Positions 19,951-45,072 of a stretch of 64,000 nucleotides of DNA are shown one piece after another. The DNA comes from Paraglaciecola marina. Its GTDB lineage: Bacteria; Pseudomonadota; Gammaproteobacteria; Enterobacterales; Alteromonadaceae. The notes under the pieces were generated by a model. It did not search any database. It had not been told where the DNA came from and saw only the letters and a list, made by a program, of their open reading frames with translations. The number at the start of each line of letters is the position of its first letter. Within the stretch, counting starts at the first letter, position 1. A program made the translations under genes and the position numbers. The stretch covers positions 124,001-188,000 of the forward strand of contig NZ_SAIS01000004.1 of assembly GCF_004360155.1 (NCBI RefSeq), in the 5' to 3' direction.

Positions 19951-21306
19951 TTAATACCTGTCGTCTAATCCAAATATAGGTTGTCTAGTTAACCATTTAC
20001 CACGGGTGAAATCAGGAAAGTGCATAGGCTTACCGCCACTAGCGATAGACTTTTCAGACATACAAGTGACCGCAGCCCAAGACGCATGATCGTACACATC
20101 CATCGGCATAGGCTCATTCCTTTTTAATGCCTCAACAAAAGCATGGATAACAAAGAAATCCATACCACCGTGACCTGCACCTTGCGCATCGCCTTGATAT
20201 TTTTTCCATAATGGATGATCGTATTTTTCCATATACGCAGCATCGTTTTCCCACTCATGTGCAGGACTCTTACCTTCAATATGTATACTGTTATTCAAAT
20301 CCATCCAAATACCATCAGTGCCTTGTACCCTAAACCCTAAAGAATAAGGTCGAGGTAAGTTTGTATCATGGGTTAACACTATGGTTTCACCTTGGGCACA
20401 TTTAATAACGGTGGTAACAATATCCCCCAATCTAAAATCAACAGAAGCATTGGGATGAGACTCACCTCCATTTGGATGCTCATCAATGTACTCATTTAAT
20501 CCTCGAGCTTTAGTAGCTGTCGATGTTAGATATTCAAAGCGATTACCTCTATTATTATTAATACAATTAGCAACTGGACCTAACCCATGAGTAGGGTATA
20601 AATCTCCGTTTCGAAGCACCGAATGGTTGGTTCTCCAGCGCGCCTCACTGTAGCCTTTTTGACCAAATTCTACGCCACCACCATACAATTGCTTACCATT
20701 ATTAAATTTAACGTGACGAAGATCATGTTGGTAGCCCCCCTGAAGATGAACAATTTCACCAAAAAGGTTTTGTCTTACCATATTTAAAACAGCCATCACG
20801 TCACGGCGATAAGCTACATTCTCTAAGATCATGAAAGGCGTTTGAGTTCGTTCATAAGCATCGACTAATGCCCAACATTCTTCAATATCAAAGGCACCGG
20901 CTACTTCAAGGCCAACTGCTTTTTTAGCTTCCATTGCATCAATCGCCATAGGCGTATGCCAAACCCAAGGTGTTGAAATAATCACTGCATCAACATCATC
21001 TCTAAGTAAAAGGTTCTTATAATCTTCATCGCCTGCACCAAACATGGCAGGTTTAGCCATGCCTGCACTCTCAACCATTTTTGCTGAATTTTCGAGTCTC
21101 TCTTTGTCTACATCACAAACGGCAGTTACAACAATATCTTTTCTTTTTAAGGTAAGGGCTAGCTGCCCTGTTCCCCGCGCACCAATCCCAATAAAACCTA
21201 AACGTAATTTGCTAGCAGTCGATGATGTAGCATAAGAAAATGGCGTAGCTGAAAGGGCTAATGCTGCACTAGCAGCGGTGTTAACTAAAAATTTTCTTCT
21301 ATTCAT
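19951..21306 (-). CDS. GH109 alpha-N-acetylgalactosaminidase-like protein, Tat-exported
   Basis: A 451-residue protein with start MNRRKFL at 21306. NRRKFLVNTAASAALALSA is a twin-arginine signal, expected for an enzyme exported with bound NAD. The N-terminal Rossmann domain has GFIGIGARGTGQLA and CDVDKERL, as in the Gfo/Idh/MocA fold. The middle and C-terminal regions carry features I associate with GH109 rather than dehydrogenases: NVAYRRDVMAVLNMVR, GGYQHDLR, ARWRTNHSVLRNGDLYPTHG, ARGLNEYI and GAGHGGMDFFV. GH109 enzymes remove terminal alpha-GalNAc by an NAD-assisted oxidation/elimination mechanism. It is last in a minus-strand series with nagP, nagK and nagA, which fits release of GalNAc in the periplasm before uptake. 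No operator is visible directly upstream, so it is probably read from the nagP promoter. Confidence 0.9.
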   Translation of the reverse strand: MNRRKFLVNTAASAALALSATPFSYATSSTASKLRLGFIGIGARGTGQLALTLKRKDIVVTAVCDVDKERLENSAKMVESAGMAKPAMFGAGDEDYKNLLLRDDVDAVIISTPWVWHTPMAIDAMEAKKAVGLEVAGAFDIEECWALVDAYERTQTPFMILENVAYRRDVMAVLNMVRQNLFGEIVHLQGGYQHDLRHVKFNNGKQLYGGGVEFGQKGYSEARWRTNHSVLRNGDLYPTHGLGPVANCINNNRGNRFEYLTSTATKARGLNEYIDEHPNGGESHPNASVDFRLGDIVTTVIKCAQGETIVLTHDTNLPRPYSLGFRVQGTDGIWMDLNNSIHIEGKSPAHEWENDAAYMEKYDHPLWKKYQGDAQGAGHGGMDFFVIHAFVEALKRNEPMPMDVYDHASWAAVTCMSEKSIASGGKPMHFPDFTRGKWLTRQPIFGLDDRY

Positions 21307-21435
21307 AATCAATATTTATCCGTTGAGAAATACGCAAGACCAAAGCCCAACGCAGATTAAAAAACAAGAACATCTTCTAAAGAGAACAACAGGTAAATCA
21401 GCGTTATTCTTTAATCAAAGATGACAGCATAATGT

Positions 21436-22584
21436 TCATTCGCTGAGATATCTCTGGCCGCTAATCCAAGTGCCGATCACATTTTGTTCCTCATCTAATT
21501 CGACAAAGTTCGCTTGATAGCCTGATTTAATGCGTCCAAATTGATGCTCTAAGCCGATAGCGTGAGCTGGATAGAGAGACGCCATGCGAACCGCCTCGAC
21601 CCAACTTACCCGCGCAAATTTCATCGCGTTTTTAATAGCCGCATTCATATCTAAGTCTGAACCAGCTAGTGATCCCGCAGCATTAGTACAGCGCCCATCA
21701 ACTGCATAAATAGTTTCACCATCTAACACGAAAGACTTATCAATTGCCCCCACGGTTGACATCGCATCAGTTACCAATACCGCCCCGCCAGTTTGCTTCG
21801 CTGCAACAGCAACACGAAACGCAGCTGGGTGCATATGAAAACCATCGGCAATAATTCCAAACCAACTATTTTCGTCGTTAAGTGCGGCTCCTACCATCCC
21901 TGGGGCACGGCTTTGAAGAGGTGTCATGGCGTTATATAAATGAGTAAAGCCTGTTACACCGGCAGCTAATGCATCACACGTCTGCTCATAATCCGCTCCT
22001 GTATGACCTGCACAAATAGTGATGCCTTTATCGCAGATTCGCTTAATCATATCCGTGGTAGTCAATTCAGGTGCAATGGTGATTATGGTTTTGCCTACAT
22101 TTAATGAACTAATGACTTCTAAGCCTTCTTCATCAATTAGGCAAAATTTTTCTTCTGCATGTGCCCCTTTGCGTTCAGGGTTTAAGAACGGTCCTTCTAG
22201 ATGAATACCCAAAATACCAGGTACCCCTTCATCAATAGCTTGCTTTACCGCAGAAATGGCCTGTCTCATTACGTCAAAACTGTCTGTGATTAGGGTTGGC
22301 ATCAGGCCTGTAGTACCAAAACGCCTATGGGCACTGGCGATAGTTCGTAACCCTTCAACAGTAGGGGCATTGTTAAACATCACACCACCACCGCCATTAA
22401 CCTGAAGGTCAATAAACCCAGGAACGAGGTAACGCCCCGACAAGTCGAATCGTCTTTCTATCGTAGCTGGCAGTTCACTTTGGGGCATGACCGCAACAAC
22501 TTTGTCGCTATCTACAATAACGGCATGGTTTTGAAGTACTGATTGCCCTGTAAATATTTGAGTATTAATAAGTGCTGAAGTCAT
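21436..22584 (-). CDS. nagA: N-acetylhexosamine-6-phosphate deacetylase (NagA/AgaA)
   Basis: A 382-residue cytoplasmic amidohydrolase, the length of E. coli NagA. It removes acetate from GlcNAc-6-P or GalNAc-6-P. Metal and catalytic motifs are present: HLEGPFLNPERKGAH (metal-binding Glu), AGHTGA and THLYNAM (metal-binding His residues), and LVTDAMS (catalytic Asp). The protein cannot be assigned to GlcNAc-6-P or GalNAc-6-P by motif alone; context with AgaS, GH109 and an AgaR-like regulator favours a role on GalNAc-6-P (AgaA function). It lies 51 bases after nagK, in the same direction. Confidence 0.93.
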   Translation of the reverse strand: MTSALINTQIFTGQSVLQNHAVIVDSDKVVAVMPQSELPATIERRFDLSGRYLVPGFIDLQVNGGGGVMFNNAPTVEGLRTIASAHRRFGTTGLMPTLITDSFDVMRQAISAVKQAIDEGVPGILGIHLEGPFLNPERKGAHAEEKFCLIDEEGLEVISSLNVGKTIITIAPELTTTDMIKRICDKGITICAGHTGADYEQTCDALAAGVTGFTHLYNAMTPLQSRAPGMVGAALNDENSWFGIIADGFHMHPAAFRVAVAAKQTGGAVLVTDAMSTVGAIDKSFVLDGETIYAVDGRCTNAAGSLAGSDLDMNAAIKNAMKFARVSWVEAVRMASLYPAHAIGLEHQFGRIKSGYQANFVELDEEQNVIGTWISGQRYLSE

Positions 22585-22635: not shown

Positions 22636-23544
22636 TTACTCACCTGCACATTTCCCGAGATACGCAGCCCCTCTAACACCACTAGAGTCTCCAAATATAG
22701 GGGCGACAACGTTAGGAGGCATAACCCCTTTAAACAAATACTGTTTCATTACCGCAGATAAAGGAGGATAGAGTTCATTAATATTTGATAGACCACCACC
22801 TAATACTATGATGTCAGGGTCATACATCAGGGTTAGTTGTGCTAAATAACAACCTAAGCAGTCGATGTAAGCATCAAAGGTTTTTTGGGCTTTACTTTCG
22901 CCTGCTTGTAACCCTTTTATGAGTGCTGGCACAGATGTATAACCTGCCTCAAAGTGTGTGCACATCCAAAGTAATCCTGGGCCAGCTAGATATTCTTCAA
23001 CGCAGCTAAGTAAGCCGCAACCACATTGGCGCAGAGGGAATTGATAACGCTGCTGCAAAATAGCAGGAAGTGGTATATGTCCAAATTCACAAGCCACATT
23101 TTGCTTACTGCGAAAAAGTTGCCCATCAATGCACACCCCCCCTGCGACTCCCGTACCCAAAACTAAACCCAGTACATTTTTCTGCCCCTGTGCTGCACCG
23201 CCATTGGCCTCAGATAACACAAAGGCTTTTACATCATTCTCAAATCCCACTGGACGATTCAGTACTTTAAGGGTGTCTGCCACCAGAGGCTGGCCATTAA
23301 TACTTGGAATATTGGCAGAAACAGCACATCCTAGACTGTCTACAATACCCGGGAAGCCAATACCTACTGACCCTTGACAACCAGTTGTTTGATCCGCTTT
23401 ATCAACCATTTCAGCTAGGGTTGCTAAAAGGTGTTGGTAATTATCCCCAGGTGTCGCCACTCTCCATGAGTTGCTTAGTGTGAAGTCAGCATTAAAAATC
23501 GCTATTTCGATTTTTGTGCCTCCCACGTCCAGACCGTAATGCAT
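22636..23544 (-). CDS. nagK: ROK-family N-acetylhexosamine kinase (NagK-like)
   Basis: A 302-residue cytoplasmic kinase that phosphorylates an N-acetylhexosamine at O6 with ATP. It aligns along its length with E. coli NagK (303): YGLDVGGTKIEIAIF (ATP phosphate loop), GSVGIGFPG, FENDVKAFVLSEA, LGTGVAGG, EFGHIPLP, the zinc motif CGCGLLSC (one Gly replaced by Ser, all Cys kept) and VLGGGLSN. NagK enzymes act on GlcNAc; whether this copy prefers GalNAc is not visible. A second, unrelated kinase lies at 36171-37133, so the two may divide GlcNAc and GalNAc. Confidence 0.9.
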   Translation of the reverse strand: MHYGLDVGGTKIEIAIFNADFTLSNSWRVATPGDNYQHLLATLAEMVDKADQTTGCQGSVGIGFPGIVDSLGCAVSANIPSINGQPLVADTLKVLNRPVGFENDVKAFVLSEANGGAAQGQKNVLGLVLGTGVAGGVCIDGQLFRSKQNVACEFGHIPLPAILQQRYQFPLRQCGCGLLSCVEEYLAGPGLLWMCTHFEAGYTSVPALIKGLQAGESKAQKTFDAYIDCLGCYLAQLTLMYDPDIIVLGGGLSNINELYPPLSAVMKQYLFKGVMPPNVVAPIFGDSSGVRGAAYLGKCAGE

Positions 23545-23648: not shown

Positions 23649-24965
23649 TTAACTAGCTCGCCAGTGAGTTAACTTGTGTCCTTTGACTGCGTAAAAAGCA
23701 ATAAACACATAACAAGGCACCATGATCCAATATGGGCTTTGCAAATCACCCGAACCATCAGCTAGATAACCATAAATCAAAGGAATAATTGCACCACCGG
23801 CAATTCCCATAATTAATAATGCAGATGCTGTACTAGTATCTTTCTGATTCAAACCGCTAAGAGCTAATGGCCATACAGCTGGCCAGACTAAGGCATTAGC
23901 TAAACCAAGTAAGGCAACGTATAACACTGCATTTGGAATAGCCGGAACACCTGTCCAACCGAACAGTAAGTCCCATAAGTCTGTTGAAACTGTGCTTGCG
24001 TTAAGCAGTAATACTGTAAAGGTCGCCCCAGCGATTGCAGAAATTGCCAAAGCAAAGCTTTGACTGAGCATGCGAGGGATGAACAACATACCTAACACGT
24101 AGCCAACAACCATAAAACCCATAGTATAGGAGGTTAACTCACCAAAATTAGTGACACCCAGCTCTTTACTAAACAAACCAATTGTATCACCAGCAAGCAC
24201 CTCTACTCCGACGTAGAAAAACAAAGCAATAGCTCCAAGTATGACTTGTGGTTTTTGCAAAATACTGCTGTCGTCATCTTCACTTGCTTCTTCATCTGAA
24301 TTGATATCAGGCAAAGGAACCGATTTAATAAACAAGCCAAGTACGAATAACATCCCGGCCATAATCAAATAAGGCGTGATCAAACGTGATGACAGCTCTG
24401 CAAGTTCCACTGCTCTTTGTTCCATATCCAATGAGGCTAATCTAGTTTCGGTAAATTGAGACATGTCTGTTAGCACAAATGCAGTAAATACAAGTGGGGC
24501 GACAATACCTGCACCTTTATTTAAAATACCCATAATACTGATACGAACAGCAGCAGTTTCTCGTGGACCCAGTAGTACAATATAAGGATTAGAAGCAGTT
24601 TGTAGAATCGTTAGACCAGCACCTAACATAAACAACGCCACTAAAAAAATGCTATACATTCTAAAATAAGCGGCTGGTATGAACATTAAGGCTCCCACTA
24701 CCATCACGAACAATCCCAGCACCATACCGTCTTTAAAACCCGTATGGCGTAAAATATAAGACATGGGTAATGCCATCACTGTATATGAAATATAGAAAGC
24801 AAATGTCACTAACAAAGCTTCAAAATGGCTCAATTCACAAGCTACTTTTAAAAATGGGATCAAAGAGCCATTGAGCCAAGTCACAAAGCCAAACATAAAA
24901 AATAATATGCCGATAATCAGCATAGGGAGCAAACTACTAGAAGGTTGATTATTTGTGCTTGTCAT
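23649..24965 (-). CDS. nagP: Amino-sugar:H+ symporter of the FHS family (NagP-like)
   Basis: A 438-residue MFS protein with twelve hydrophobic segments, related to the fucose/glucose/galactose:H+ symporters. The ATG at 24965 (MTSTNNQ) is preferred over a GTG three codons upstream. Landmarks are FFMFGFVTWLNGSLIPFLK in TM1, QTASNPYIVLLGP between TM4 and TM5, and a central acidic loop (SDEEASEDDDS). NagP of marine gammaproteobacteria imports N-acetylhexosamines through the inner membrane without phosphorylating them, so a cytoplasmic kinase is needed, and nagK is the next gene. The upstream spacer holds a 13-bp palindrome and AgaR-like repeats. Confidence 0.88.
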   Translation of the reverse strand: MTSTNNQPSSSLLPMLIIGILFFMFGFVTWLNGSLIPFLKVACELSHFEALLVTFAFYISYTVMALPMSYILRHTGFKDGMVLGLFVMVVGALMFIPAAYFRMYSIFLVALFMLGAGLTILQTASNPYIVLLGPRETAAVRISIMGILNKGAGIVAPLVFTAFVLTDMSQFTETRLASLDMEQRAVELAELSSRLITPYLIMAGMLFVLGLFIKSVPLPDINSDEEASEDDDSSILQKPQVILGAIALFFYVGVEVLAGDTIGLFSKELGVTNFGELTSYTMGFMVVGYVLGMLFIPRMLSQSFALAISAIAGATFTVLLLNASTVSTDLWDLLFGWTGVPAIPNAVLYVALLGLANALVWPAVWPLALSGLNQKDTSTASALLIMGIAGGAIIPLIYGYLADGSGDLQSPYWIMVPCYVFIAFYAVKGHKLTHWRAS

Positions 24966-25006
24966 GGAGAACACCGATTAAGTCATAAAATAAAAAAAGG
25001 TAATAT

Positions 25007-25026: not shown

Positions 25027-25094
25027 ATAATGAAAGAAACCTTACCACCCTTCATTATCTTTCACAAGACTGGATAACGAAAGAAAACGAAATC
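25027..25094 (-). promoter_or_regulatory. AgaR-like operator cluster before nagP
   Basis: On the minus strand, GATTTCGTTTTCTTTCGTT (about 25075-25093) closely follows the E. coli AgaR pattern of TTTC(A/G)TTT repeats. A second element, GGTTTCTTTCATT, lies at 25028-25040. They are about 108 and 62 bases before nagP. The distal site touches the 3' end of the upstream DUF4832 gene. Confidence 0.6.
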
Positions 25095-26664
25095 AATTTT
25101 TTACCTGTATACTTTGAAGTAGCGAGTTATACCCTTTTTGAGGTTGCCATGTACCTTGATTAGCAAATTGAATACTGTACTCAGGACGATGACTTATTAT
25201 TCCACCATTACTCACGTCAGCTATGTGCAGCGATATATGATATTGGCCTTTCTCCATAGAGGCAGGCAGTTGCAAGGTCTCTTCAATTCTAACGTTACTC
25301 TCTGGACGCCAGCTTCGAATATCATAACGTTCAGGATCGAGCACAACTGCATACTCTTGCCCGCTAGTATTATGAGTAAATATAACCCTAAGCTGCATTG
25401 GGAACATTGGAGACGTAAAACCTAGGTTTTCTATATCTAACGAGAAAAGCATAAGTCCACCAGCATTCGCAGCACTAGAGTACTCACCCTTCACCATGGC
25501 TAAACGATAACCAAGACGACGTTTGATATCCGACATACAGCCTTCGTCCTGCCAGTCATTATTGACTTGATTGTTATACGCTGAGTTTAAATAGGTATAA
25601 TTAAATCGATCTATAATATCGACTACATTATGACTACAGTTGTTTTGAGGAGAGTAGCCGTCATCACAGGTTTCCCCGCCCACAATAGTATAACGACTGT
25701 GCTGAGCTTGATGAGTTTTTAATGCATTTACTACTTTCTCGTTATTAACTGGGGCTTTAGCAGATGATCCGTAGTCGGCAAATGTTCCCCAATCATCTGA
25801 TGTAGCAAGAAAACAATCATTGTATAAACCTAACCTAGAAGCATCAGAGCCATTAAATGCCTGAAATTCGCGTAATGGGGCGGCAGTGACTGGAGCCTCA
25901 GCTCCATGCATAAACTTTTGAATTAATTGAGGTTTCCTAACTTGCACAGTTATGTCTTTTGGTACAGAGTCTAATATTGCTTTAACCATTTCAACTCGGT
26001 CATCCCAATTTTCATTGTAAATCCTACCTTGTGCATCAAAGTCACCAAAATGATCGGTGAACATCATCTCTCCCCATGTACCTATAAAGCCAGCCTGCCA
26101 AGTCAAAAGTACATCATGGTTTTTACTCAACACCTCCGAGACTTGCTCTATATGCGCCAAGACAATATCTTTACTGGCATCACCATAAGGAGGGCATATC
26201 CAGGAACCACAATCACCCGTTGGTGGAACATTGTTATAGGAGAATCTAACAATAAATTTAACCCCAGTTTTTCTGGCTGTATCAAAGTCACTTTGTAACT
26301 GCTGTAGAAAGGTCTCTGACAGCTCTTTAGTGTTAACAAAGCTATCTAAAATGTATTGCCTAAGAAAAAGTCCATGTCTGATTTGATAATTTCCGCCTAC
26401 GGGCGTTGAGTACGTATTCCGCAGCCTAAGCAGTTCCTCTTCAGTGACCGCCTCAAAACTACTGGCCTTCGTTGCATAAGGATAATAGAAGCCACGACCT
26501 GGGTTCATGATATCTTCGTCAGAAACAGTATATTTTACTTGATGGGTAGGACCGGTACTGCTACTTAAGCTACAACTGAACAACACCAAGCACAGACCTA
26601 AAACTAGAAGCGATTTGATTAGGCAAGCAGCGTTTATAACTGGGCCGTAAAATTTTTTAAACAT
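25093..26664 (-). CDS. DUF4874/DUF4832-type lipoprotein, putative glycoside hydrolase
   Basis: A 523-residue exported protein. A hydrophobic N-terminus ends in VLFSC, with Cys31 as the likely lipidated residue. Residues about 45-350 look like the TIM-barrel DUF4874 part (NPGRGFYYP, FDTARKTGVKFIVRFSY), and about 370-510 the DUF4832 beta-sandwich (RLGYRL, SLHIADVSNGG, RPEYSIQFAN). Two Glu residues are shared with the other two related proteins in the locus: Glu199 in GTWGE and Glu331 in VGGETC. They are plausible acid/base and nucleophile residues of a retaining barrel glycosidase, but that is inference. I know of no established function for the family. It sits between nagP and a small exported domain protein, inside the GalNAc locus. 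Confidence 0.75.
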   Translation of the reverse strand: MFKKFYGPVINAACLIKSLLVLGLCLVLFSCSLSSSTGPTHQVKYTVSDEDIMNPGRGFYYPYATKASSFEAVTEEELLRLRNTYSTPVGGNYQIRHGLFLRQYILDSFVNTKELSETFLQQLQSDFDTARKTGVKFIVRFSYNNVPPTGDCGSWICPPYGDASKDIVLAHIEQVSEVLSKNHDVLLTWQAGFIGTWGEMMFTDHFGDFDAQGRIYNENWDDRVEMVKAILDSVPKDITVQVRKPQLIQKFMHGAEAPVTAAPLREFQAFNGSDASRLGLYNDCFLATSDDWGTFADYGSSAKAPVNNEKVVNALKTHQAQHSRYTIVGGETCDDGYSPQNNCSHNVVDIIDRFNYTYLNSAYNNQVNNDWQDEGCMSDIKRRLGYRLAMVKGEYSSAANAGGLMLFSLDIENLGFTSPMFPMQLRVIFTHNTSGQEYAVVLDPERYDIRSWRPESNVRIEETLQLPASMEKGQYHISLHIADVSNGGIISHRPEYSIQFANQGTWQPQKGYNSLLQSIQVKN

Positions 26665-26777
26665 AGAATACCTATTTCTGATATAAAATTTGAGAGCATG
26701 GTAAAGGTCACCTCATCCCAAATAAGGACTCGACGGTTTCATTTTTAGATATTTTCTTCGAGTGATTTGGTCTAATT

Positions 26778-27407
26778 TTATTGAAAGGTGTATGTTGCCA
26801 TCGCTTTATCTGGACTTTCATCGGTCGCCCAGCCTTCTCCTGTAGATACAAATTTTACTTTAATGGCAGTACCTTTAACGGGTGAACCCAATTCACTCAA
26901 AGGAATTCTTCCTTTAATTTGCCTAGGAGTATCCACAACACTTGAAGTTAATGCATTGCTTTGTAGGGCAGATGACCAGCTACCAGACTGAGCCTCATAA
27001 CGCTCAACCACCCATTGCATGCTATCGTTAGTTATAAAACGAAAACCATAACTTGCATCTAACTGTTTAAGACTCGTAGCTCCTGCGGGTAAAGGATTGG
27101 CAGTGCGCCCCCTAGTATCCATACTGAAATACAATTCATGACGGTGCCAACTAGCAATATTATCTTTGTTATCAAAAGAGAAGTACAAAAATTGACTGTC
27201 ATTCACTAGGCGATTCTTTAACAGATTATTGTATCCTTCGGCAATATCATCACCATCTGTATAAATCGACCAATAAAGATTCTGATCTGAGTTTTTAACT
27301 GGAGTTTGCTTTGCTTTCACTTGATAAGAAGCCGTCAACGTAGCAATGACAGCTAAAGCAATGAAGATTGGAAGTAATAGTTTTTTCAGGTTAAAAAATG
27401 ACGACAT
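26778..27407 (-). CDS. Small exported protein with a recurring putative glycan-binding domain
   Basis: About 209 residues; the ATG at 27407 (MSSFFNLKK) is preferred over an upstream GTG. The hydrophobic stretch LLLPIFIALAVIATLTAS is a signal peptide or anchor. The remainder is one domain that also occurs twice in the lipoprotein at 31507-32718: WH, then DT, PAGATSLKQLDASYGFRF, IPLSELGSP, and VSTGEGWATDESPD near the end. The DT/GY.F strand pattern resembles CBM9-like beta-sandwiches, so glycan binding is plausible but unproven. It is the first gene of the minus-strand series leading to nagP and lies next to an AgaR-like operator. Confidence 0.65.
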   Translation of the reverse strand: MSSFFNLKKLLLPIFIALAVIATLTASYQVKAKQTPVKNSDQNLYWSIYTDGDDIAEGYNNLLKNRLVNDSQFLYFSFDNKDNIASWHRHELYFSMDTRGRTANPLPAGATSLKQLDASYGFRFITNDSMQWVVERYEAQSGSWSSALQSNALTSSVVDTPRQIKGRIPLSELGSPVKGTAIKVKFVSTGEGWATDESPDKAMATYTFQ

Positions 27408-27484
27408 AATATTTACTCTCACGAAAACAATTAACTTTTATGTTTCTTTTATTTCTTTTTAAATATTATAATCCTAAAAACCAA

Positions 27485-27508
27485 CCAAACGCAATCAAAT
27501 GAAACTCT
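27485..27508. promoter_or_regulatory. AgaR-like operator in the 27407/27662 divergent spacer
   Basis: GCAATCAAATGAAAC (27491-27505), within CCAAAC...CTCT, matches most of the 24-base E. coli AgaR consensus (reverse orientation) as I remember it. Its core is nearly identical to the site before the receptor at 35702. A second GAAA-rich stretch (27534-27560, with AAAGTGAAATA) follows. The spacer is 254 bases and serves both divergent genes. Confidence 0.65.
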
Positions 27509-27661
27509 TTAGGGTTGAAAAAGTCAAACACTTGAAAGAAAAATCACCCAAAGTGAAATATAAGACCGCTATTTCTAATTTGAGAAGTGCACCAAATTAA
27601 CCAGATAAATCTGTGAAACTAGCAATGACCACAGCTACAGAGACTGATTCAAACATAGAGA

Positions 27662-28945
27662 GTGATAAAGGTGAAAAAGAAACATATCCAGCTGATTTAT
27701 TTAATCGCATTGTTTTATCAAGGTTTTTTATACGGTACTGAAAACACCTTTAGCCCAATTCGATTGTCGACATCAATAAACAAAGTTCAACCCATGACGG
27801 GTATAGCCTTTTGGGCAAATAACAACAAAGCTCTTGAAGCCCTTGGAGACACTGTACAGTTAGAGTATTCTTACTTAACTTATAGTGATGTTATTGAAAC
27901 TAAAGGTCATTACAAATGGGAAGTCATCGACAATTTACTCAATGATATTGCCAGTCGTAAACATCAAGCAATCTTACGTTTTCACTATACTTACCCCGGT
28001 AAAGTCAAAATATCAGTACCTGCTTATATCTTTAATGATGAAGATTACGCCCGCACCTCAGCAACAATCGAAAATAAAAAGACTTTTGTGCCTGACTGGA
28101 GTTTTAAAGAACTAGAGACGTTCACCACTCAATTTTTCGCCAATTTTGCAGCTCGCTTCGACGGTGATCCTAGGTTGGCCATGATTCAAGTAGGCTTTGG
28201 GTCCTACGCAGAATACCACTTATATAATGGGCCGAGAGTTCTCGGTAAAACCTTCCCTACAAAGAAATTTCAGAAGACTTTTTTTAAAACAATGAATGAC
28301 AAGTTCGATACAACACAGTGGTCAGTGTCTATTGACGCAGCGAATTCTGAATACGGTCCATTTTCCAAAAAAGCTGAACATGCAAACCTTAACTTTGGTT
28401 TATTTGATGACTCAATGATGCATAAAACCCACTCTGTTACTGAAGATGAATACAACCTATCGTCTTGGAAGTTTTTTGGAATTGAACGCTACAAAAAAAA
28501 TATGATGGGTGGTGAATTCAGTTACTACTCTGATTATGACCAAAAAAGCGTACTTACCTATCCCGATGGTGCTTGGGGCAGAAGCTTTGAATCTTTTGTC
28601 GCACAATTTCATCTTAGCTACATCATTGGCAATGATCAGTTTCGTTACCAAGTGCCAGGGCGAATTAGAGAAGCTTCTATGTCAATGGGCTACAAGTTTC
28701 ATGTTAATAGCTTTGAGGCTTCTAACGAGCAAAGTCGCATCAGCATTTCCAATATTGGCGTAGCTCCTTTCTATTACGACGCCTACCCTGCTGTTAATGG
28801 TGTGCGATCGAACATATCATTAAAAGGGTTACTCCCAAATCAGACTATAGAGTTTCTTATAGAATCAGGGGGTGACAAACCCAGTTTCACGATAGAAAGT
28901 GAGTATCTGGTTGAGGGTCAAGTAATTGGATTTTCAGCAGATTAA
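27662..28945 (+). CDS. Exported DUF4832-like barrel protein, divergent member
   Basis: Up to 427 residues. The frame starts with GTG at 27662, and a second GTG at 27671 gives VKKKHIQL; both yield the same signal peptide (LIYLIALFYQGFLYG), without a lipobox Cys. The body resembles the DUF4874/4832 proteins nearby: RFHYTYPG near residue 106, GFGSYAEYHLY with Glu184 in place of the GTWGE Glu, and MMGGEFSYY with Glu285 in place of VGGET. It lacks much of the C-terminal region of the other two. It is divergent from the minus-strand series and shares its AgaR-like operator region. Function unknown; a periplasmic or secreted glycosidase acting with its relatives is a reasonable guess. Confidence 0.65.
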   Translation: MIKVKKKHIQLIYLIALFYQGFLYGTENTFSPIRLSTSINKVQPMTGIAFWANNNKALEALGDTVQLEYSYLTYSDVIETKGHYKWEVIDNLLNDIASRKHQAILRFHYTYPGKVKISVPAYIFNDEDYARTSATIENKKTFVPDWSFKELETFTTQFFANFAARFDGDPRLAMIQVGFGSYAEYHLYNGPRVLGKTFPTKKFQKTFFKTMNDKFDTTQWSVSIDAANSEYGPFSKKAEHANLNFGLFDDSMMHKTHSVTEDEYNLSSWKFFGIERYKKNMMGGEFSYYSDYDQKSVLTYPDGAWGRSFESFVAQFHLSYIIGNDQFRYQVPGRIREASMSMGYKFHVNSFEASNEQSRISISNIGVAPFYYDAYPAVNGVRSNISLKGLLPNQTIEFLIESGGDKPSFTIESEYLVEGQVIGFSAD

Positions 28946-28993
28946 AGGGCGTAAATTGCCTTAAAAATACGTTTTAATTTAAGATGACGCCCT
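28946..28993. terminator. Inverted repeat between convergent genes
   Basis: AGGGCGT (28946-28952) and ACGCCCT (28987-28993) enclose an inner weaker TTAAAA...TTTTAA repeat. It lies between the stop codons of two convergent genes (28945 and 29036), and the A/T-rich flanks (TTTAAAAA) suit termination in both directions. Confidence 0.6.
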
Positions 28994-29035
28994 ATTTAAA
29001 AACCTCTGAAGGTACCGATAGTTCACTGATTGATT

Positions 29036-31246
29036 TCAATCGGTGAGAGGCAAACTATAGGCCGACATGACTTCATCGGCCAGCGGCAACCGTGATTGAA
29101 CCTGCCACATAACATCAACATCATTTACCCCGATATTAATGCTCGAGTTAATCGGGTCAATATCGCTCTGTTCTATACTTAGCTCAATAAAGTTAGTTGA
29201 ACTGTTAGCTTCAATACTATGTGTATTTTGTGGCTCCCAGCTCCAATCTGAACCCGTTGATTTATATAAAGTAACTATGTCACCAGTGCCTTGTTGAATT
29301 AAATAATCAGCACCTGACAACGCCCAATCAGATGATTGGAAACCTGTAGAATTGTCGCCGTCAGAGTTGATAAACAAGTCAAAATAAGGCCCCATCTCGT
29401 TACCCTCCATCGCTATATATAAATATGTTTCATCAGCAATCACTTTTAATGATGTGACTTGTTGATTTTCGGCACTAGCGAGTAGCGAAATACTATCCCA
29501 ATCATTAGCATTACCATCAATTGAAATATTCACAACCACGGGCTGAATGGACGGTTCGGATTCAAGCTCAATTAAAGGTTCTGTTGGCCTTGTGTTTTTA
29601 TCCTCCCCCTCCACATATGCCGAGACAGTCATAGTTTGCTCGAGATTATTATAACCGTTTAACTCATCCCATAAGCCAACATTAGCGAGTTGAATGCTAT
29701 ATTCAGGGCGTGTGGCTATCACACCATGATTCGACACGTCTGCAATATGTAAGAATAAATCGTAACTACCTATGGCCAAATTATCAGGTAGTTTAATGTA
29801 CTCACCTATTTCTGTGGTACCGGATTGCCAAGTGCGTATATCATTGCCTGTAGCCTCTAGAACAATAGTCGTTTCTAGTCCTGTGATTTGATGCTTCAAT
29901 ATAAGTCGTAACTCCATAGCAGTAATGACAGACGTAAAACCATCATTATCAACAGTCAGCAAAAATGGTACATAATTGCCAGCATTGGCTGTAGCCACTG
30001 CTGTAGAGCTAGTCATCGCTAGGCGATAACCTAATCTATTTTTAATTTCGTCCATGCAGGCATCATCACCCTCGGTCCAATCGTTATTGACGGAATTATT
30101 ATAATCAGTATTGAGGTAACTATAATTAAGCTCATCCATGGTATTAACCACATCATCACTACAATCATTTGCATAAGACACTGGTGGAATAGCCCAATCC
30201 TCATCCTTGCAAGTCTCACCTCCCACAATAACAAATTGACTATCGTTTTGGTGGTAACTCTTTAGAATACCCACTGCATTACCCTGTTTTTCTCCTCCGG
30301 CAGTACCATAATCAGCATAGGTACCAGTATCAGAATCGTCTGTCAAAAAGCAGTCATTATGAAAACCAATCCGGGCAATATCTCCACCACTAAAAGCACC
30401 ATCAGCCGTTAAACTACCCTCTGTTCCACTAAGTCCAGCAGTAATTGGCGCATCAGCGCCGTATATAAGCTTTTGTTTCGCTTGTGGTGTTCTTACTTGC
30501 ACCATAGTCGACTCAGCAGTTGCCGTTAACAACGCGGCCAATACTTCACTTCTATCAAGCCAATTTTGGTCAGTATAGCTAGCACTAACGTCTCCGGCGG
30601 GACTAAAGTTATCGGTGTAGTATTGCTCGCCCCACGCACCAATGAAACCTTGTTGTATGGTTAATATAACATCAGCATTTTCGGTCAAAATGGGTTGTAG
30701 TTGCTCAATATGAGCAAGAATTGTGGCTTTATCAGGATCGCCATAAGGCTCACTAGCATTTTTATGATAATAAAAACGTACCACCATCTTAATGCCAGCT
30801 TCTCGGGCGGTATCAAAATCAGTTTGAGTTTGGCTTAAGGTCTGGCTCGACAACGTTGCGTTGTCAACGTAGTTATCTAAAATAAAAGCTCTTAAAATAA
30901 TGGTGGCATTAACGCTATAACTCGCATCAGCTGCTTGATAGCCATTTCTATTGGCGACCAAATCGTCTTTATTTAAAGGTATAAACGCACTGGTTTGTGT
31001 TTCTGTGTGCTGATAGAAACCTCTGCTAGGGTTAGCAATGTCTTCATCAGATTTAATATAATATTTGTTCGTTACAGTGAAGCCCCCTAATAATTCAGCT
31101 TCTGGTGCTGTTTCAGGCTCAGAAACACTCGGAATAGTTGGCGTCTCATTGCCGCCTACTTCTTGACCAGAACCAGTGCTGCCGCTACAACTAGATAAAG
31201 CAGCGATCAATAAACTAAATATCAATATATTTTGAAGAATTATCAT
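29036..31246 (-). CDS. DUF4874/DUF4832 lipoprotein with C-terminal CBM9-like domain
   Basis: A 736-residue lipoprotein with a canonical lipobox (AALSSC, Cys20) and a Gly/Ser/Pro-Glu linker to about residue 55. The DUF4874-like barrel (about 60-375) starts with NPSRGFYQH and carries Glu207 in GAWGE and Glu344 in VGGETC. The DUF4832 part follows to about 540 (RLGYRLAM, HIADVSNHG, RPEYSIQLAN). After an acidic linker, residues about 572-734 look like a CBM9-type binding domain (IDGNANDWDS, LYIAMEGN, FDLFINSDGDNSTGF). Putative surface glycanase plus binding module. It is the last gene after a receptor and a repeat lipoprotein on the minus strand. Catalytic function is inferred only. Confidence 0.77.
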   Translation of the reverse strand: MIILQNILIFSLLIAALSSCSGSTGSGQEVGGNETPTIPSVSEPETAPEAELLGGFTVTNKYYIKSDEDIANPSRGFYQHTETQTSAFIPLNKDDLVANRNGYQAADASYSVNATIILRAFILDNYVDNATLSSQTLSQTQTDFDTAREAGIKMVVRFYYHKNASEPYGDPDKATILAHIEQLQPILTENADVILTIQQGFIGAWGEQYYTDNFSPAGDVSASYTDQNWLDRSEVLAALLTATAESTMVQVRTPQAKQKLIYGADAPITAGLSGTEGSLTADGAFSGGDIARIGFHNDCFLTDDSDTGTYADYGTAGGEKQGNAVGILKSYHQNDSQFVIVGGETCKDEDWAIPPVSYANDCSDDVVNTMDELNYSYLNTDYNNSVNNDWTEGDDACMDEIKNRLGYRLAMTSSTAVATANAGNYVPFLLTVDNDGFTSVITAMELRLILKHQITGLETTIVLEATGNDIRTWQSGTTEIGEYIKLPDNLAIGSYDLFLHIADVSNHGVIATRPEYSIQLANVGLWDELNGYNNLEQTMTVSAYVEGEDKNTRPTEPLIELESEPSIQPVVVNISIDGNANDWDSISLLASAENQQVTSLKVIADETYLYIAMEGNEMGPYFDLFINSDGDNSTGFQSSDWALSGADYLIQQGTGDIVTLYKSTGSDWSWEPQNTHSIEANSSTNFIELSIEQSDIDPINSSINIGVNDVDVMWQVQSRLPLADEVMSAYSLPLTD

Positions 31247-31506: not shown

Positions 31507-32718
31507 TTAAGGTGCTTCAGCAGTATAATCATACATACCAGCATCAGGTATTTGATCTGTTCCCCACCCAGCTCCTGTTCCTACAAACATCATTTTGATT
31601 GTCGTTATATCTGTAGGATTACCAATTTCACTTAGCGGAATAGACATGGTCGTGTAAACAGAATCACCGCCCTGTGCAGCTGCTGTGGTTTCTGCTTCGA
31701 CCCAAACGCTTTGATCCACAACTTTCTTATAAGAATTCCAGCCTTCTCCGGTATATTCAAAGCTATATCCATATTCAGCAACTAAGCCTGTTAGACTTGC
31801 CGCACCGCCAGCCATAGGTTCAGTAGTGGTATCACTATCATCTGTGTTCAAATATACACTGATCGTATGCCAAGCATCTTTGGCAGCTTTATGCTTTTGT
31901 GTAATGACTAAGTCGCTGTCATCTATATTAACGGTCACTGACTCAATGTTATTACCAAGAGGGGTAATATCATCATCTGCTTCCTCAATTTCAATGGTTA
32001 TTGGTTTATCAAATTGAAACATTGCATCATTGGGGGCTTGATCTGTTCCCCACCCAGCTCCGGTGCCTACAAACATAATATCGAATGCTGCGACGTCCAC
32101 TGGTTCGCCAATTTCACTTAATGGAATTGTGATAGTCGTAATTACAGTGTCACCACCTGTCGCTGTTGCAGTTGTATCTGCATCAACCCAACCACCTTGA
32201 TCTACGTCTTTTTTCGAAGCGTTCCAGCCTTCTCCAGTATATTCAAAGTTATATCCATATTCGGCAACTAAGCCAGTTAAGCTTGCCGCCCCGCCCGCTA
32301 TCGGCGTACTTGTGGTATCGGTGTCATCGGTATTTACATATACTCGAATGGTATGCCATGCGTCTTTAGCAGCTTTATGGGCTTGTGTTATGACTAAGTC
32401 AGTATCGACAACTTTATAAGACACATAGTCAATATCATTTCCAAGTGGGCTAATATCATCATCGGTTTCGGTAAGTAGTGCGACTTCTGCACTTGCTGCG
32501 GCTTCTTCTGCGGCGGCTAAGGCTGCGGCTTCTGCAGCTTCTGCTGCGGCAATGGCTTCTGCTTCCGCCTGTGCAGCGGCTTCTGCTTCTGCTTCTGCAA
32601 TAGCAGCGACAAGCGCTTCATCAACTGGCTCTACATTACTTTCTAGCTCTTGCTCCCAGCAACCGCTTAACGTTATAGACAGTAAACTCAGTACAAATAT
32701 ATATTTTAAACTCTTCAT
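31507..32718 (-). CDS. Lipoprotein with Ala/Glu-rich stalk and two tandem putative glycan-binding domains
   Basis: A 403-residue protein with lipobox ITLSGC (Cys20). Residues about 34-80 are almost entirely Ala and Glu (AEAEAEAAAQAEAEA and similar), a likely helical stalk. Two homologous domains follow, about 87-236 and 248-399. Each has ISPLGN or ITPLGN, HKAAKDAWHTI, NTDD, GGAASLTGLVAEYGY, TGEGWN, IPLSEIG and FVGTGAGWGTDQ. The same domain is single in the protein at 26778-27407. The design (lipid anchor, spacer, repeated beta-rich domains, position directly after a TonB receptor) is that of a surface glycan-binding protein, analogous to SusE/SusF, but no known family is recognised. Confidence 0.75.
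   Translation of the reverse strand: MKSLKYIFVLSLLSITLSGCWEQELESNVEPVDEALVAAIAEAEAEAAAQAEAEAIAAAEAAEAAALAAAEEAAASAEVALLTETDDDISPLGNDIDYVSYKVVDTDLVITQAHKAAKDAWHTIRVYVNTDDTDTTSTPIAGGAASLTGLVAEYGYNFEYTGEGWNASKKDVDQGGWVDADTTATATGGDTVITTITIPLSEIGEPVDVAAFDIMFVGTGAGWGTDQAPNDAMFQFDKPITIEIEEADDDITPLGNNIESVTVNIDDSDLVITQKHKAAKDAWHTISVYLNTDDSDTTTEPMAGGAASLTGLVAEYGYSFEYTGEGWNSYKKVVDQSVWVEAETTAAAQGGDSVYTTMSIPLSEIGNPTDITTIKMMFVGTGAGWGTDQIPDAGMYDYTAEAP
31522..32460 (-). repeat. Internal tandem duplication encoding the two binding-type domains
   Basis: The segments 32011-32460 and 31522-31977 are homologous at DNA and protein level; stretches around GCAGCTTTATG and CCAGCTCC are the same in both copies. It is an in-frame domain duplication inside one gene, with enough divergence that it is not very recent. 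Confidence 0.8.
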
Positions 32719-32819: not shown

Positions 32820-35702
32820 TTAAAACTTATAACGTACACCTGCTTTTGCGGTTCGGCCCCACTCAGCATAACTACCCGGTAAGTTAGTGGTGCCACTGAA
32901 ACCATGCCAGCCTTCATCTAATAAGTTATCTAGTTGCACGTAAGCTTCTAGACCTTCAGCCACATAGAAGGTTGCCGATGCAGATGCCCATGTAGTTGGC
33001 GAAGCCATACTTTTATAGGTATCGGTAACACTACCATCTGCATCATAAACATTGAGTGGCGACCAATGACTGGTTACAAAAGCCTCTGAATGATAAGCCG
33101 ATAAATTTAAACTCATCTTATCGTTGTTATACAGCAGGCTGAGAGAGTAAGAGGTGTCTGGTATATTTTCTAAAACACCGACTGAAAATCCACTGACGAT
33201 AGACTCTGTATCGATATAAGTATAATTAGATGTAATACCAAAACCTGAATCAAAGAAGTGTTGCAAGGCAAATTCATATCCTAAGATTTTTGCTTGGTCT
33301 AAATTTCTTGGTCCTGCAATCGTAAAGGCCACTTCTTCATACATACCTGATGGGGCCCAACGTACTGGGTTCTCCACAAGATAAGTAGGTTTATCTTCTG
33401 GATTATCTTGATAAAGATCTATACCTGATTGCACAAAGCCTCTAATGTCTTTTTGAAATACAGCAGCACTAATCGAAGAACCCTCTTTGTAGTACCATTC
33501 AATAGATATATCGGCTTGCTGAGCGGTTACAGGGCTTAAATTGGGGTCACCAATATTAGTGATGTACCATTGATTATAAGTAAGGGCGTCATGATCTACC
33601 TGTGTTGATAGCTGGTCTATGCCCGGCCTTGACATCACTTCGGCGTACGACAAACGTACAAGTAGCTCTTCTGAAAATTCGAACTGAAGATTCATAGAAG
33701 GCAATAGTTTGTCGTAATCATTTTCGACCGAAATTGCAACGGTAGGCCCATAATCAACTACAGAAGCCCAAATAGTTTCAGGCGCCTCTGATACGCTTAA
33801 AATGGGTCTATCCCAACCAGTGGATGTCACATCAGTTTGCACATACCTCACACCTAGATTACCGGAGATGTTCACAAAATCGAATTCGGTGCTAAAGTTA
33901 GCTTGTACAAAGATAGACACAGTTTCTTCTTCAACAGCGCCTGACAAATTAGAGTTAAAAACGGGAAACAATGTATCCGAGTAGCCATCGACATAGGGCT
34001 CACCCGTAAGAGGGTTGATAACATTCGCATTCCCATCTGCTGACTTGATTGCTTCAAATGCATTGGCAACATCAAATATCGCAAACTCGCGAGGAAAATC
34101 TCCACTTACGCCATCAAGAAAATTATCAAACGGAAAAGCTTTTACTACATCAGCATCAACATCGTCCCATGTAAATGGCGCTCCGCTATACAATGACATG
34201 TTGGCGCTATTGTCATACTGCTCACGTTCTTTAGTTCGTTTGTTGTATACCACACCGTATTCAACACTATTTATAACGTCCAAATCCAAAAAAATCTGAT
34301 GTTCCAATGAAGCTCCTATCACTTCATCGTCAATATTAATGCCTTCTAACCGAGTAAAATGAGGACCAAATTGACCATTTCCAACAATGTCACTGACTTC
34401 AGTGATCCCCCCCTCATTATCAGCAAAATCTAAGGTAATGCTTGGTAAACCGCCATCTGTTAATTCCATCCTAGCGGTTGTCTCACCAGCAACTACAGGC
34501 ACAGAAACAACAAATCTATCTTTGCCACCGGCTTCGCGAGTTGCATTAGACATATATACATCACCGGTTAACACTGAGTTTTCAGTCACGTTATAGGTAA
34601 AGTTTGCCCCCAAATTGACAGTGTCTACAACACGATGCTCTTCAAGCGTCACCAATTGCGGTAAGAGATTTTGCACGGTTAGACCGGTAACTAATGTGCC
34701 TAGCGGATTCAACTCAGTTTTTATTCCACCATATGTAGCATCTGTGCCACTTGCGATAACGTCTGGGAAAAAATAAGATTCGGTATAACCTTTACTGGGC
34801 GTGTCTAAACGAGTCCATAATGCGTCAACAACAATATCTAAATCACTATTAGGTCTGTATTGGAATGCGGCAGAAATCGCTGTACGCTCTTTATTTTCTT
34901 CACGAGCAGTATAGGCAATGGTACCTGGGAAAATTAACTCGTTATCCGCTGGGTCGTTCGTTAGGCCATCACCATTTCGATCCCAAGACCAATTTGTACT
35001 GGTTGAAGGCTCCCACCAATTATCTGACAATTCATCAGTTCGAGTTGGCGCTCTGCTATATAGGGCAGAAACTAAAATACCCATAGTGTCATCATTAAAT
35101 GTATGACTACCTACGCCTGTTAACTTGTAACCATATTTATCTGCCTGTTCTCGATATATACCTTCAGCTCCGAAAGCACCATGAGTACCAGCGTTGTCAA
35201 ACGGTCGAGCAGTTTTAAGATTGATAGCGCCACCAATACTGCCTTCTAATTGCGAAGCGGTAACTGATTTATGCACCCAAGCTTCAGAAATAACCGAAGA
35301 AGGTAAAACGTCAAAAGCAAAGTCACGACTTGATGAATCTGTTGCCATAATACGATTATTGATTGTAACAATACTAAATTCTGGCCCCAAACCACGAATA
35401 CTCACGCCTTGTCCTTCACCTCCAGATGTTCTATCTATGGTGATACCTGTGATGTGTGATAACGAATCTGCTACGTTAGCATCAGGGAAAACACCTAACT
35501 CAGCTGCTGTAATGCCATCGACAATAGAATCGCTCTCACGTTTCACATCCAACGCCTTGATAAGACTTTTCTGAGAAGAAGTCACTGTGATGACTTCATA
35601 TTCATCCTCCATGACTTCTTCATCAGCAGCATAAGTAAATGCCGAACTACATAGCAGGCTTATTGCCAGAGTCAGTCTTGTTTTCCTAAATTTATTATTC
35701 AT
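32820..35702 (-). CDS. TonB-dependent receptor, carbohydrate type (receptor 1)
   Basis: A 960-residue outer-membrane receptor. A signal peptide ends near FTYAAD, and EVITVTS is a TonB-box-like segment. The plug has the form seen in sugar-locus receptors of Alteromonadales and Caulobacter: FPDANVADSLSHITGITIDR, IRGLGPEFSIVTINNR, SIGGAINLKTARPFD. The barrel ends in RYKF. It presumably imports oligosaccharides produced by the surface DUF4832-type proteins. A GAAATCAAATGAAA operator lies about 75 bases upstream. The repeat lipoprotein gene follows 101 bases downstream, so receptor and binding protein are probably co-expressed. It is a paralogue of the receptor at 39910-42642. Confidence 0.9.
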   Translation of the reverse strand: MNNKFRKTRLTLAISLLCSSAFTYAADEEVMEDEYEVITVTSSQKSLIKALDVKRESDSIVDGITAAELGVFPDANVADSLSHITGITIDRTSGGEGQGVSIRGLGPEFSIVTINNRIMATDSSSRDFAFDVLPSSVISEAWVHKSVTASQLEGSIGGAINLKTARPFDNAGTHGAFGAEGIYREQADKYGYKLTGVGSHTFNDDTMGILVSALYSRAPTRTDELSDNWWEPSTSTNWSWDRNGDGLTNDPADNELIFPGTIAYTAREENKERTAISAAFQYRPNSDLDIVVDALWTRLDTPSKGYTESYFFPDVIASGTDATYGGIKTELNPLGTLVTGLTVQNLLPQLVTLEEHRVVDTVNLGANFTYNVTENSVLTGDVYMSNATREAGGKDRFVVSVPVVAGETTARMELTDGGLPSITLDFADNEGGITEVSDIVGNGQFGPHFTRLEGINIDDEVIGASLEHQIFLDLDVINSVEYGVVYNKRTKEREQYDNSANMSLYSGAPFTWDDVDADVVKAFPFDNFLDGVSGDFPREFAIFDVANAFEAIKSADGNANVINPLTGEPYVDGYSDTLFPVFNSNLSGAVEEETVSIFVQANFSTEFDFVNISGNLGVRYVQTDVTSTGWDRPILSVSEAPETIWASVVDYGPTVAISVENDYDKLLPSMNLQFEFSEELLVRLSYAEVMSRPGIDQLSTQVDHDALTYNQWYITNIGDPNLSPVTAQQADISIEWYYKEGSSISAAVFQKDIRGFVQSGIDLYQDNPEDKPTYLVENPVRWAPSGMYEEVAFTIAGPRNLDQAKILGYEFALQHFFDSGFGITSNYTYIDTESIVSGFSVGVLENIPDTSYSLSLLYNNDKMSLNLSAYHSEAFVTSHWSPLNVYDADGSVTDTYKSMASPTTWASASATFYVAEGLEAYVQLDNLLDEGWHGFSGTTNLPGSYAEWGRTAKAGVRYKF

Positions 35703-36170: not shown

Positions 36171-37133
36171 TTAGAGGTTTTGCAACTTATGTAAGCATGA
36201 CTTAGAGGCAGTTTCACCTGATAAATGCATAGCATACAAAGCCGAGCCAATTACAGGGCTATACAAAGGTGATGAAATAGAAAAACGCAATGTAGTTTGA
36301 TTAAGGGCGTCTTTCATTGGCTTAGAAACCAATGAGCCCGAGCGAAACACACCGCCCGAAAATGAAAGGTTAACATGCTCATTTTCAGTAAAACCTAGCA
36401 CTTCACGGGTACTGAGTACAATTTTAGCTAGCTCTTTGCCGGCTTCTTCCATGATCCTCAAAGCTTCATAATCCCCTAAACCCGCAGCTTTGCTCACCAA
36501 AATTGATACCGCTGCAATCCGGCTACGCTCGCCTTGCCACTTAGACAATACGAGTCCGGTAATATCTAAATCTTGCCCAATAGCTAAGTCTTGTTTAATG
36601 ACTTCGTATAAAGGCCCTTTTTTTAATCTACCGTCAGACATTTGTGAGAATGCACGCAACCCGTTTATGGCAACCCAATATGCTGAGCCTTCGTCACTAA
36701 ACAGTTCTCCCCAACCACCACAACGAGCACGCTGATTTTTTCGCACGCCGTAAGCAATAGATCCAGTTCCAGCTACAATATTAATGCCGTCCTGCCCACC
36801 AAATGCAGCTGCCCAGCCGTTCACCATATCATTGTCACATTGGTATTGCTTTGCTGACAATATACTACTGGGCAACTCGGAGATGCGGTTATCGACTTCA
36901 CTATCTTCACCGAAAGCGGGTAACCCAAAGAAAGCGTAAGTAAGGTCATTAACGTTTTTTTTAGCTAAATGTAGCGTCTTTGAAATGCCACTTTCAATGA
37001 CATTCCTTGCTCCATCAAGTCCCACTTGGATGTGATAGCAGGTTGGCTCTGAATGTTCAGCTAAAATGTGACCATTTTTATCAATGAGCACAAACGCGGT
37101 TTTTGTGCCCCCGCCATCAACACCTAAAAACAT
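36171..37133 (-). CDS. BadF/BadG/BcrA/BcrD-family sugar kinase (candidate GalNAc kinase)
   Basis: A 320-residue ASKHA-fold kinase. The ATP-binding loop is FLGVDGGGTKTAFVLID, followed by VAGTGSIAYGV and GGWGELFSDEGSAYWVAI, all typical of the N-acetylglucosamine kinase branch of the BadF/BadG family. A late FSGGVFRSG is the adenosine motif. It is third in the kbaZ-agaS-kinase series, 29 bases behind agaS, which argues for phosphorylating the substrate of the AgaS route, that is GalNAc or galactosamine at O6. The locus also has a ROK kinase, so the two are either redundant or divide substrates. Confidence 0.85.
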   Translation of the reverse strand: MFLGVDGGGTKTAFVLIDKNGHILAEHSEPTCYHIQVGLDGARNVIESGISKTLHLAKKNVNDLTYAFFGLPAFGEDSEVDNRISELPSSILSAKQYQCDNDMVNGWAAAFGGQDGINIVAGTGSIAYGVRKNQRARCGGWGELFSDEGSAYWVAINGLRAFSQMSDGRLKKGPLYEVIKQDLAIGQDLDITGLVLSKWQGERSRIAAVSILVSKAAGLGDYEALRIMEEAGKELAKIVLSTREVLGFTENEHVNLSFSGGVFRSGSLVSKPMKDALNQTTLRFSISSPLYSPVIGSALYAMHLSGETASKSCLHKLQNL

Positions 37134-45005: not shown

Positions 45006-45072
45006 AAATTTTATAATAAAACGATGTTTATATTTTTTAGCGGATAATAAATAGCATGTTATGGAGAAAAAA

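Follow-up and report, generated by a model that had tools for sequence, protein, structure and literature searches.

Three DUF4832 proteins with invariant acidic residues

The window, that is, the whole 64,000-nucleotide stretch of Paraglaciecola marina DNA that was analysed (contig NZ_SAIS01000004.1, forward-strand positions 124,001 to 188,000), carries three genes encoding proteins of the DUF4832 superfamily, here called A, B and C (Table 1). An original prediction, made from the sequence alone, had proposed them as new glycoside hydrolases (GHs) with a conserved pair of glutamates, acting on a polysaccharide containing N-acetylgalactosamine (GalNAc). A and B are 44% identical and match both DUF4832 and DUF4874 above the curated Pfam cut-offs (175.6 and 135.9 bits for A, 158.8 and 147 bits for B). 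Protein C matched only DUF4832 in Pfam, at 18.1 bits, under the curated cut-off of 29.2, and BLAST of C against A or B gave no meaningful match. Comparison of the A-family and C-family profiles with hhalign yielded a probability of 98.9% (E 1.6e-17), with both glutamates aligned. Judged from these profiles, C is a homologue of A and B despite its sub-threshold Pfam score. The last ~190 residues of B (29036-29614, from about residue 545, past DUF4832) look by eye like a small β-rich binding domain and have no Pfam match.

Conservation was assessed on two alignments. The first (n=27) contains A, part of B, their counterparts from 19 of the 21 initial loci and 6 paralogues found there, and leaves out the fragments L021 and L023. 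The second (n=14) contains C and 13 relatives from the genome search and from plasmids, and leaves out the partial matches L026 and L039. Exactly two of the 26 glutamates of A are invariant over the 27 sequences, E199 and E331, and exactly two of the 25 glutamates of C over the 14 sequences, E184 and E285. For A and C these are the predicted glutamates, a pattern beyond chance. The predicted pairs (199/331 in A, 207/344 in B, 184/285 in C) are exact in position, and their spacing, put at about 100-137 residues, measures 132, 137 and 101 residues, respectively.

When both profiles were run on all fetched loci, 66 open reading frames (ORFs) were recovered, 52 of them distinct, including the three of the window and now also L026 and L039. 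All 49 distinct homologues that cover the sites keep a Glu-Asp-Glu set (the remaining 3 of the 52 are fragments missing at least one site), in a sample that is similar by construction, consisting of proteins findable by these profiles, and uneven, since many of its members come from one Bacteroidota group. The glutamate pair is therefore conserved in both subfamilies. The third invariant acid, Asp283 in A, Asp298 in B and Asp250 in C, was absent from the original prediction. The GGE motif that had been assigned to the second glutamate holds only in part: the glutamate is always kept, but the wording varies, differing in 8 members (for example PVSLE) and reading TGE in 3. Protein B has an additional GGE at residues 317-319, distinct from the conserved one.

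Structural model of protein A

An AlphaFold2 model of A, built on the 27-sequence alignment, reached a mean predicted local distance difference test score (pLDDT) of 89.8 and a predicted template modelling score (pTM) of 0.87. The model listing gives the eight strands of a TIM (triosephosphate isomerase) barrel at residues 58-66, 99-105, 136-143, 186-190, 239-242, 278-282, 328-330 and 358-360, and a C-terminal β-domain starting at residue 388. Asp283 stands directly after strand 6 and Glu331 directly after strand 7. A Foldseek search with this model returned 172 PDB matches at E<=1e-3; among the best 50 of these, the leading rows are a GH140 apiosidase, GH5 and GH30 enzymes and the Pseudomonas hydrolase 4zn2, presumably PslG, and we take most of them to belong to clan GH-A. 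The model and its matches in clan GH-A together support the predicted hydrolase fold of A, a TIM barrel; for B and C this fold would follow by homology to A.

Like the enzymes that we assign to clan GH-A (GH5, GH30, GH39, GH42 and GH140), A has a TIM barrel and a glutamate after strand 7; its other glutamate, Glu199, is near strand 4, nine residues past it. In this clan an asparagine directly precedes the acid/base glutamate of strand 4, whereas here the position is occupied by Gly198 in A, Gly206 in B and Ala183 in C. The extra invariant aspartate after strand 6 and an expected substrate that is α-linked are further differences.

Sequence searches of the PDB with protein A and with the A-family profile gave no match (for the profile, up to E 10). 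The C-family profile gave 20 matches, none of them to GH114, GH135, GH166 or GH191; its matches to GH35/GH42 β-galactosidases are weak (best E 2.6e-4) and cover a stretch that ends before the first glutamate. In Pfam, 7 of the 14 C-family members match GH42 (best 7.4e-8). Alignments of C together with the A family, tried for a better model of C, misplaced the first glutamate, and for this reason none was used.

Gene content of the locus

Table 1. Genes and residues of the window discussed in the text (aa, amino acids)
Feature	Position	Strand	Remarks
Protein A	25093-26664	-	523 aa; DUF4874+DUF4832; lipoprotein by eye
Protein A, codons of E199; D283; E331	26068-26070; 25816-25818; 25672-25674	-	invariant acids
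Protein B	29036-31246	-	736 aa; DUF4874+DUF4832 and ~190-aa C-terminal extension without Pfam family
Protein B, codons of E207; D298; E344	30626-30628; 30353-30355; 30215-30217	-	invariant acids
Protein C	27662-28945	+	427 aa; divergent DUF4832 protein; signal peptide by eye
Protein C, codons of E184; D250; E285	28211-28213; 28409-28411; 28514-28516	+	invariant acids
GH109-type α-N-acetylgalactosaminidase	19951-21312	-	PF21252 295 bits; best PDB match 2ixa, E 5.2e-145
NagA/AgaA-type N-acetylhexosamine-6-phosphate deacetylase	21436-22584	-	TIGR00221 343 against cut-off 226
ROK sugar kinase	22636-23544	-	
Major facilitator superfamily (MFS) transporter	23649-24974	-	
214-aa protein	26778-27422	-	exported by eye; no Pfam match
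403-aa protein	31507-32718	-	lipoprotein by eye; two copies of one domain; no Pfam match above cut-off
TonB-dependent receptor 1	32820-35702	-	TIGR01782 518 against cut-off 310
BadF/BcrA-type sugar kinase	36171-37133	-	
AgaS-like galactosamine-6-phosphate deaminase/isomerase	37163-38314	-	TIGR02815 496.5, under cut-off 529.2
AgaZ/GatZ/KbaZ tagatose-bisphosphate aldolase subunit	38342-39619	-	TIGR02810 643 against cut-off 569
TonB-dependent receptor 2	39910-42642	+	
EamA transporter	45061-45972	+	45-50% identical relatives in DUF4832 loci L007, L008 and L010
GH36-like α-galactosaminidase, Flavonifractor FpGalNase type	46001-48118	+	PDB 9awt, E 2.9e-86
AgaR repressor of GalNAc regulon	48757-49533	+	NF040755 337.4 against equivalog cut-off 260

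The GH36-like protein also matches 8x1b (E 5.6e-87), which is labelled α-galactosidase and is near-identical to 9awt in the alignments shown; the next different protein follows at E 1.3e-15. FpGalNase is described as acting after a deacetylase (PMC12703440), AgaS as needed for the use of both GalNAc and galactosamine (GalN) in Escherichia coli (PMC3668189), and Pel as an α-1,4 GalN-GalNAc polysaccharide (PMC9135694). With a GH109 enzyme, an FpGalNase-like GH36 and an AgaS-like protein, the locus looks equipped, as far as its sequence tells, to use GalN as well as GalNAc, the sugars of which Pel is made. It resembles the proteobacterial Aga pathway for GalNAc and GalN, as described in PMC3668189, in AgaR, the AgaS-like protein, the NagA-type deacetylase and the KbaZ-type aldolase, and differs from it in having TonB receptors and hydrolases and, among the 29 window ORFs scanned, no phosphotransferase-system gene.

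A redoxin gene (+) lies between the GH36-like gene and AgaR. Between the KbaZ gene and the EamA and GH36-like genes, the segment 39910-45005 (+) encodes the second TonB receptor, a tryptophan-halogenase-like protein and SapC. The gene of the 403-aa protein contains a 300-nucleotide repeat (74%), and a shorter DNA repeat is common to the 403-aa and 214-aa proteins.

Occurrence in other genomes

DUF4832 is rare: with the window's genome counted in each case, 5 of 98 relatives and 13 of 398 genomes in the phylum have it. No relatives of protein C were found in viral contigs. The GH36 galactosaminidase is present in 2 of the 98 relatives, the genome of the window and genome G014, taken here as that of Paraglaciecola arctica, both of which have DUF4832. 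With the window's genome given, the chance that the one other carrier falls among the 4 other DUF4832 carriers of 97 is about 0.04, calculated by hand, and it gives weak support to a link.

Synteny was tested by BLASTP of 22 window proteins against the ORFs of the fetched loci (E<=1e-8, coverage of at least 50%). A link with GalNAc genes was found in 3 of the 6 close loci outside the window (L003, L004 and L051). In P. arctica (L003) the order GH109-A-MFS-ROK-NagA is kept. In L004 (genome G052, judged by equal scores), a GH109-like protein (37%) and a TonB receptor accompany A and two copies of B. L051, from another genus (genome G429), has C with TonB, ROK and NagA, to which the Pfam matches add a melibiase with NPCBM. 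A second P. arctica locus (L049), at a contig end, has only a homologue of the 403-aa protein adjoining B. The GalNAc context named in the original prediction thus stands for the window (GH109, GH36, NagA, AgaS, KbaZ, AgaR) and its close relatives, but does not extend across the family, as discussed below. Further away, an Alkaliflexus locus (L010, 587-13146) encodes four DUF4832 paralogues together with an amidohydrolase, a GH31 enzyme, an EamA transporter and a DeoR regulator that shares 41% identity with AgaR.

On plasmid pTC2 of Paenarthrobacter aurescens TC1, only galE and the gene of a GHL15 protein lie between a C-family gene and that of PelF (score 243.6, cut-off 100). This PelF-linked member groups with C (424 vs 21 bits). 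The plasmid is typed as conjugative, and its segment 8001-14488 (L045) forms a pel-like set of the DUF4832 protein, galE, the GHL15 protein, PelF and a membrane protein. That DUF4832 genomes are generally Pel makers was considered and rejected, because PelF scored above cut-off in only 3 of 16 of them. In the window's own genome, PelF above cut-off was not found.

Proposed function and alternatives

We think it somewhat probable that A, B and C act as endo-hydrolases of one DUF4832 superfamily, secreted or anchored in the outer membrane, and cut an α-linked GalNAc/GalN polymer in a feeding locus. From the modelled fold of A, the conservation, the homology of C, the gene content and the synteny, we infer the following activity, cutting mode, linkage, compartment and order of steps. 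Each protein (B and C by homology) would have a TIM barrel with a cluster of acids, a glutamate after strand 4, an aspartate after strand 6 and a glutamate after strand 7, followed by a β-domain, and would act extracellularly on a polymer such as Pel or galactosaminogalactan. The TonB receptors would import the fragments, from which GH109 would take off α-GalNAc and the FpGalNase-like GH36 α-GalN, and the kinases, NagA, AgaS and KbaZ would channel the sugars to glycolysis under AgaR control. With less confidence, and tentatively, we put forward a narrower version: a catabolic locus for a Pel-type, cationic α-1,4-GalN/GalNAc biofilm polysaccharide, in which the DUF4874+DUF4832 proteins would make up a new family of endo-galactosaminidases, their Glu-Asp-Glu centre laid out unlike the active sites of GH114, GH135, GH166 and GH191, paired with the exo-enzymes GH109 (for GalNAc) and GH36 (for GalN).

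Few enzymes are known to cut Pel and galactosaminogalactan, which hold bacterial and mould biofilms together. If the proposal is right, the feeding locus would show how nature recycles such slime, and a further enzyme family with named residues would be gained, together with a function for two Pfam domains labelled as unknown and enzymes able to disperse biofilms. The pair of exo-enzymes for GalNAc and GalN makes the substrate prediction specific and quickly testable.

The catalytic pair may be one of three candidates: a retaining strand 4/7 pair, as originally predicted but unsupported as retaining by this analysis, an inverting strand 4/7 pair or a strand 4/6 pair. Clan GH-A enzymes mostly cut equatorial bonds, and the bond of the proposed substrate is axial. 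An inverting cut of an α-1,4 polymer as in the β-amylases of GH14, with Glu199 as the acid and Glu331 as the base, would suit such a bond, and the G-x-x-G-E loop presumably resembles the β-amylase loop. β-Amylase similarity has been reported for the streptococcal DUF4832 protein SIR_1591, and the C-family profile picks up a β-amylase at E 1.1. Pfam GH14, however, matches none of the 41 members (27 + 14), GH42 being what half of the C family matches instead, and no β-amylase is found among the best 50 of the 172 Foldseek matches, so that we hold inversion of this type to be somewhat unlikely; GH14 was above cut-off in none of 274 genomes of the class.

Since the invariant aspartate lies after strand 6, the same enzymes could cut the same substrate with Glu199 and Asp283 as their strand 4/6 pair, as in known endo-α-galactosaminidases and clan GH-D, leaving Glu331 to binding or to a helper role. 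Indeed, the aspartate is as invariant as the glutamates and directly follows its strand. The characterised endo-galactosaminidases (GH114, GH135, GH166) are described as retaining enzymes that use an aspartate nucleophile and a glutamate acid/base (PMC12054363), on strands that the loop numbering suggests to be 4 and 6. These families and GH191 share with our proteins the presumed substrate and the TIM barrel, but they have the aspartate first and the glutamate second, the reverse of the Glu, Asp, Glu order found here, and there is no profile match to their solved structures. None of the four families occurs among the best 50 of the 172 Foldseek matches, where the leading rows mostly belong to clan GH-A, with its strand 4/7 arrangement. 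A strand 4/6 pair is, in our view, unlikely.

A further reading keeps the hydrolases and changes the glycan, which would be carried by O-glycoproteins or be a mixed exopolysaccharide or a plant polymer rather than Pel-like. GH109, GH36 and GH27 enzymes also trim terminal α-GalNAc from glycoproteins, and homologues of GH109, NagA, ROK and AgaS were found in 0 of 18 further loci (L005-L022), whose flanks vary and are in some cases short. A DUF4832 gene is listed among the capsule genes of Klebsiella oxytoca (PMC6258164), and a DUF4874-DUF4832-dockerin protein among the cellulosomal proteins of a rumen Ruminococcus (PMC7480376), which fits a glycan-degrading role. On the other hand, streptococci and clostridia are reported to carry DUF4832 genes beside their pel genes (PMC7112168), the Paenarthrobacter member is linked to PelF, and a galactosaminidase-type GH36 suits a partly deacetylated polymer; another glycan is possible, but we consider it doubtful. 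Non-catalytic glycan-binding proteins with a dead barrel would agree with the surface anchoring that A and B appear to have by eye and with the small repeat proteins beside them. Yet the three acids are kept in every covering homologue, two of them directly at strand ends, and SIR_1591 is reported to be active (PMC12345266), which makes this reading very improbable.

Several observations weigh against the endo-hydrolase proposal. In the model of A, Glu199 lies nine residues past strand 4. Among the best 50 of the 172 Foldseek matches, template modelling scores are low (0.14-0.35 by query and 0.10-0.51 by target length), and some rows, GH3-like enzymes and a transporter among them, fall outside clan GH-A. 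Protein C alone gave no confident fold (pLDDT 33.7; the model was discarded). In P. arctica, the block AgaR-redoxin-GH36-EamA-TonB-KbaZ-AgaS-BadF is on a different contig from A, and the locus of C (L050) has no homologues of the GalNAc-locus genes tested; in genome G383, the locus of C (L052) has no more than a DeoR regulator with 32% identity to AgaR. The 18 further loci count here too. Where PelF is above cut-off in DUF4832 genomes, it is on other contigs or megabases from the DUF4832 gene. A shared operator motif was not found: at widths of 18, 20 and 22 the scores were 64.8, 75.0 and 80.6, and the highest among 12 shuffles were 73.5, 75.7 and 81.9. The cellulosomal protein was described in work on lignocellulose (PMC7480376) rather than in a GalNAc context. 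Finally, the open-licence literature searched gave no activity data for any DUF4874+DUF4832 protein.

Relation to known DUF4832 proteins

Recombinant SIR_1591 of Streptococcus intermedius, a DUF4832 TIM-barrel protein, was reported in 2025 to disperse Pel aggregates (PMC12345266). Hydrolase activity in the DUF4832 superfamily is therefore not new, and the novelty claimed in the original prediction is partly pre-empted; the new element would be a DUF4874+DUF4832 branch serving a locus for feeding on an α-GalNAc/GalN polymer, where no PelF in the genome reaches the cut-off. In the open-licence literature searched we found neither catalytic residues for the superfamily nor a feeding locus with the DUF4874 branch, and the word 'catalytic' is absent from the SIR_1591 paper (PMC12345266). 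SIR_1591 and the window proteins have in common DUF4832, a TIM barrel with a β-domain and a tie, for the window proteins a proposed one, to GalNAc-rich Pel. Unlike SIR_1591, which belongs to its producer's pel operon, A and B have DUF4874 in addition and are encoded in a catabolic locus. One C-family gene, in genome G066, adjoins a CotH-kinase-like gene (L053, 9141-13117), a pair that recalls the CotH and DUF4832 neighbours described for streptococcal pel operons (PMC7112168), though no PelF in G066 reaches the cut-off.

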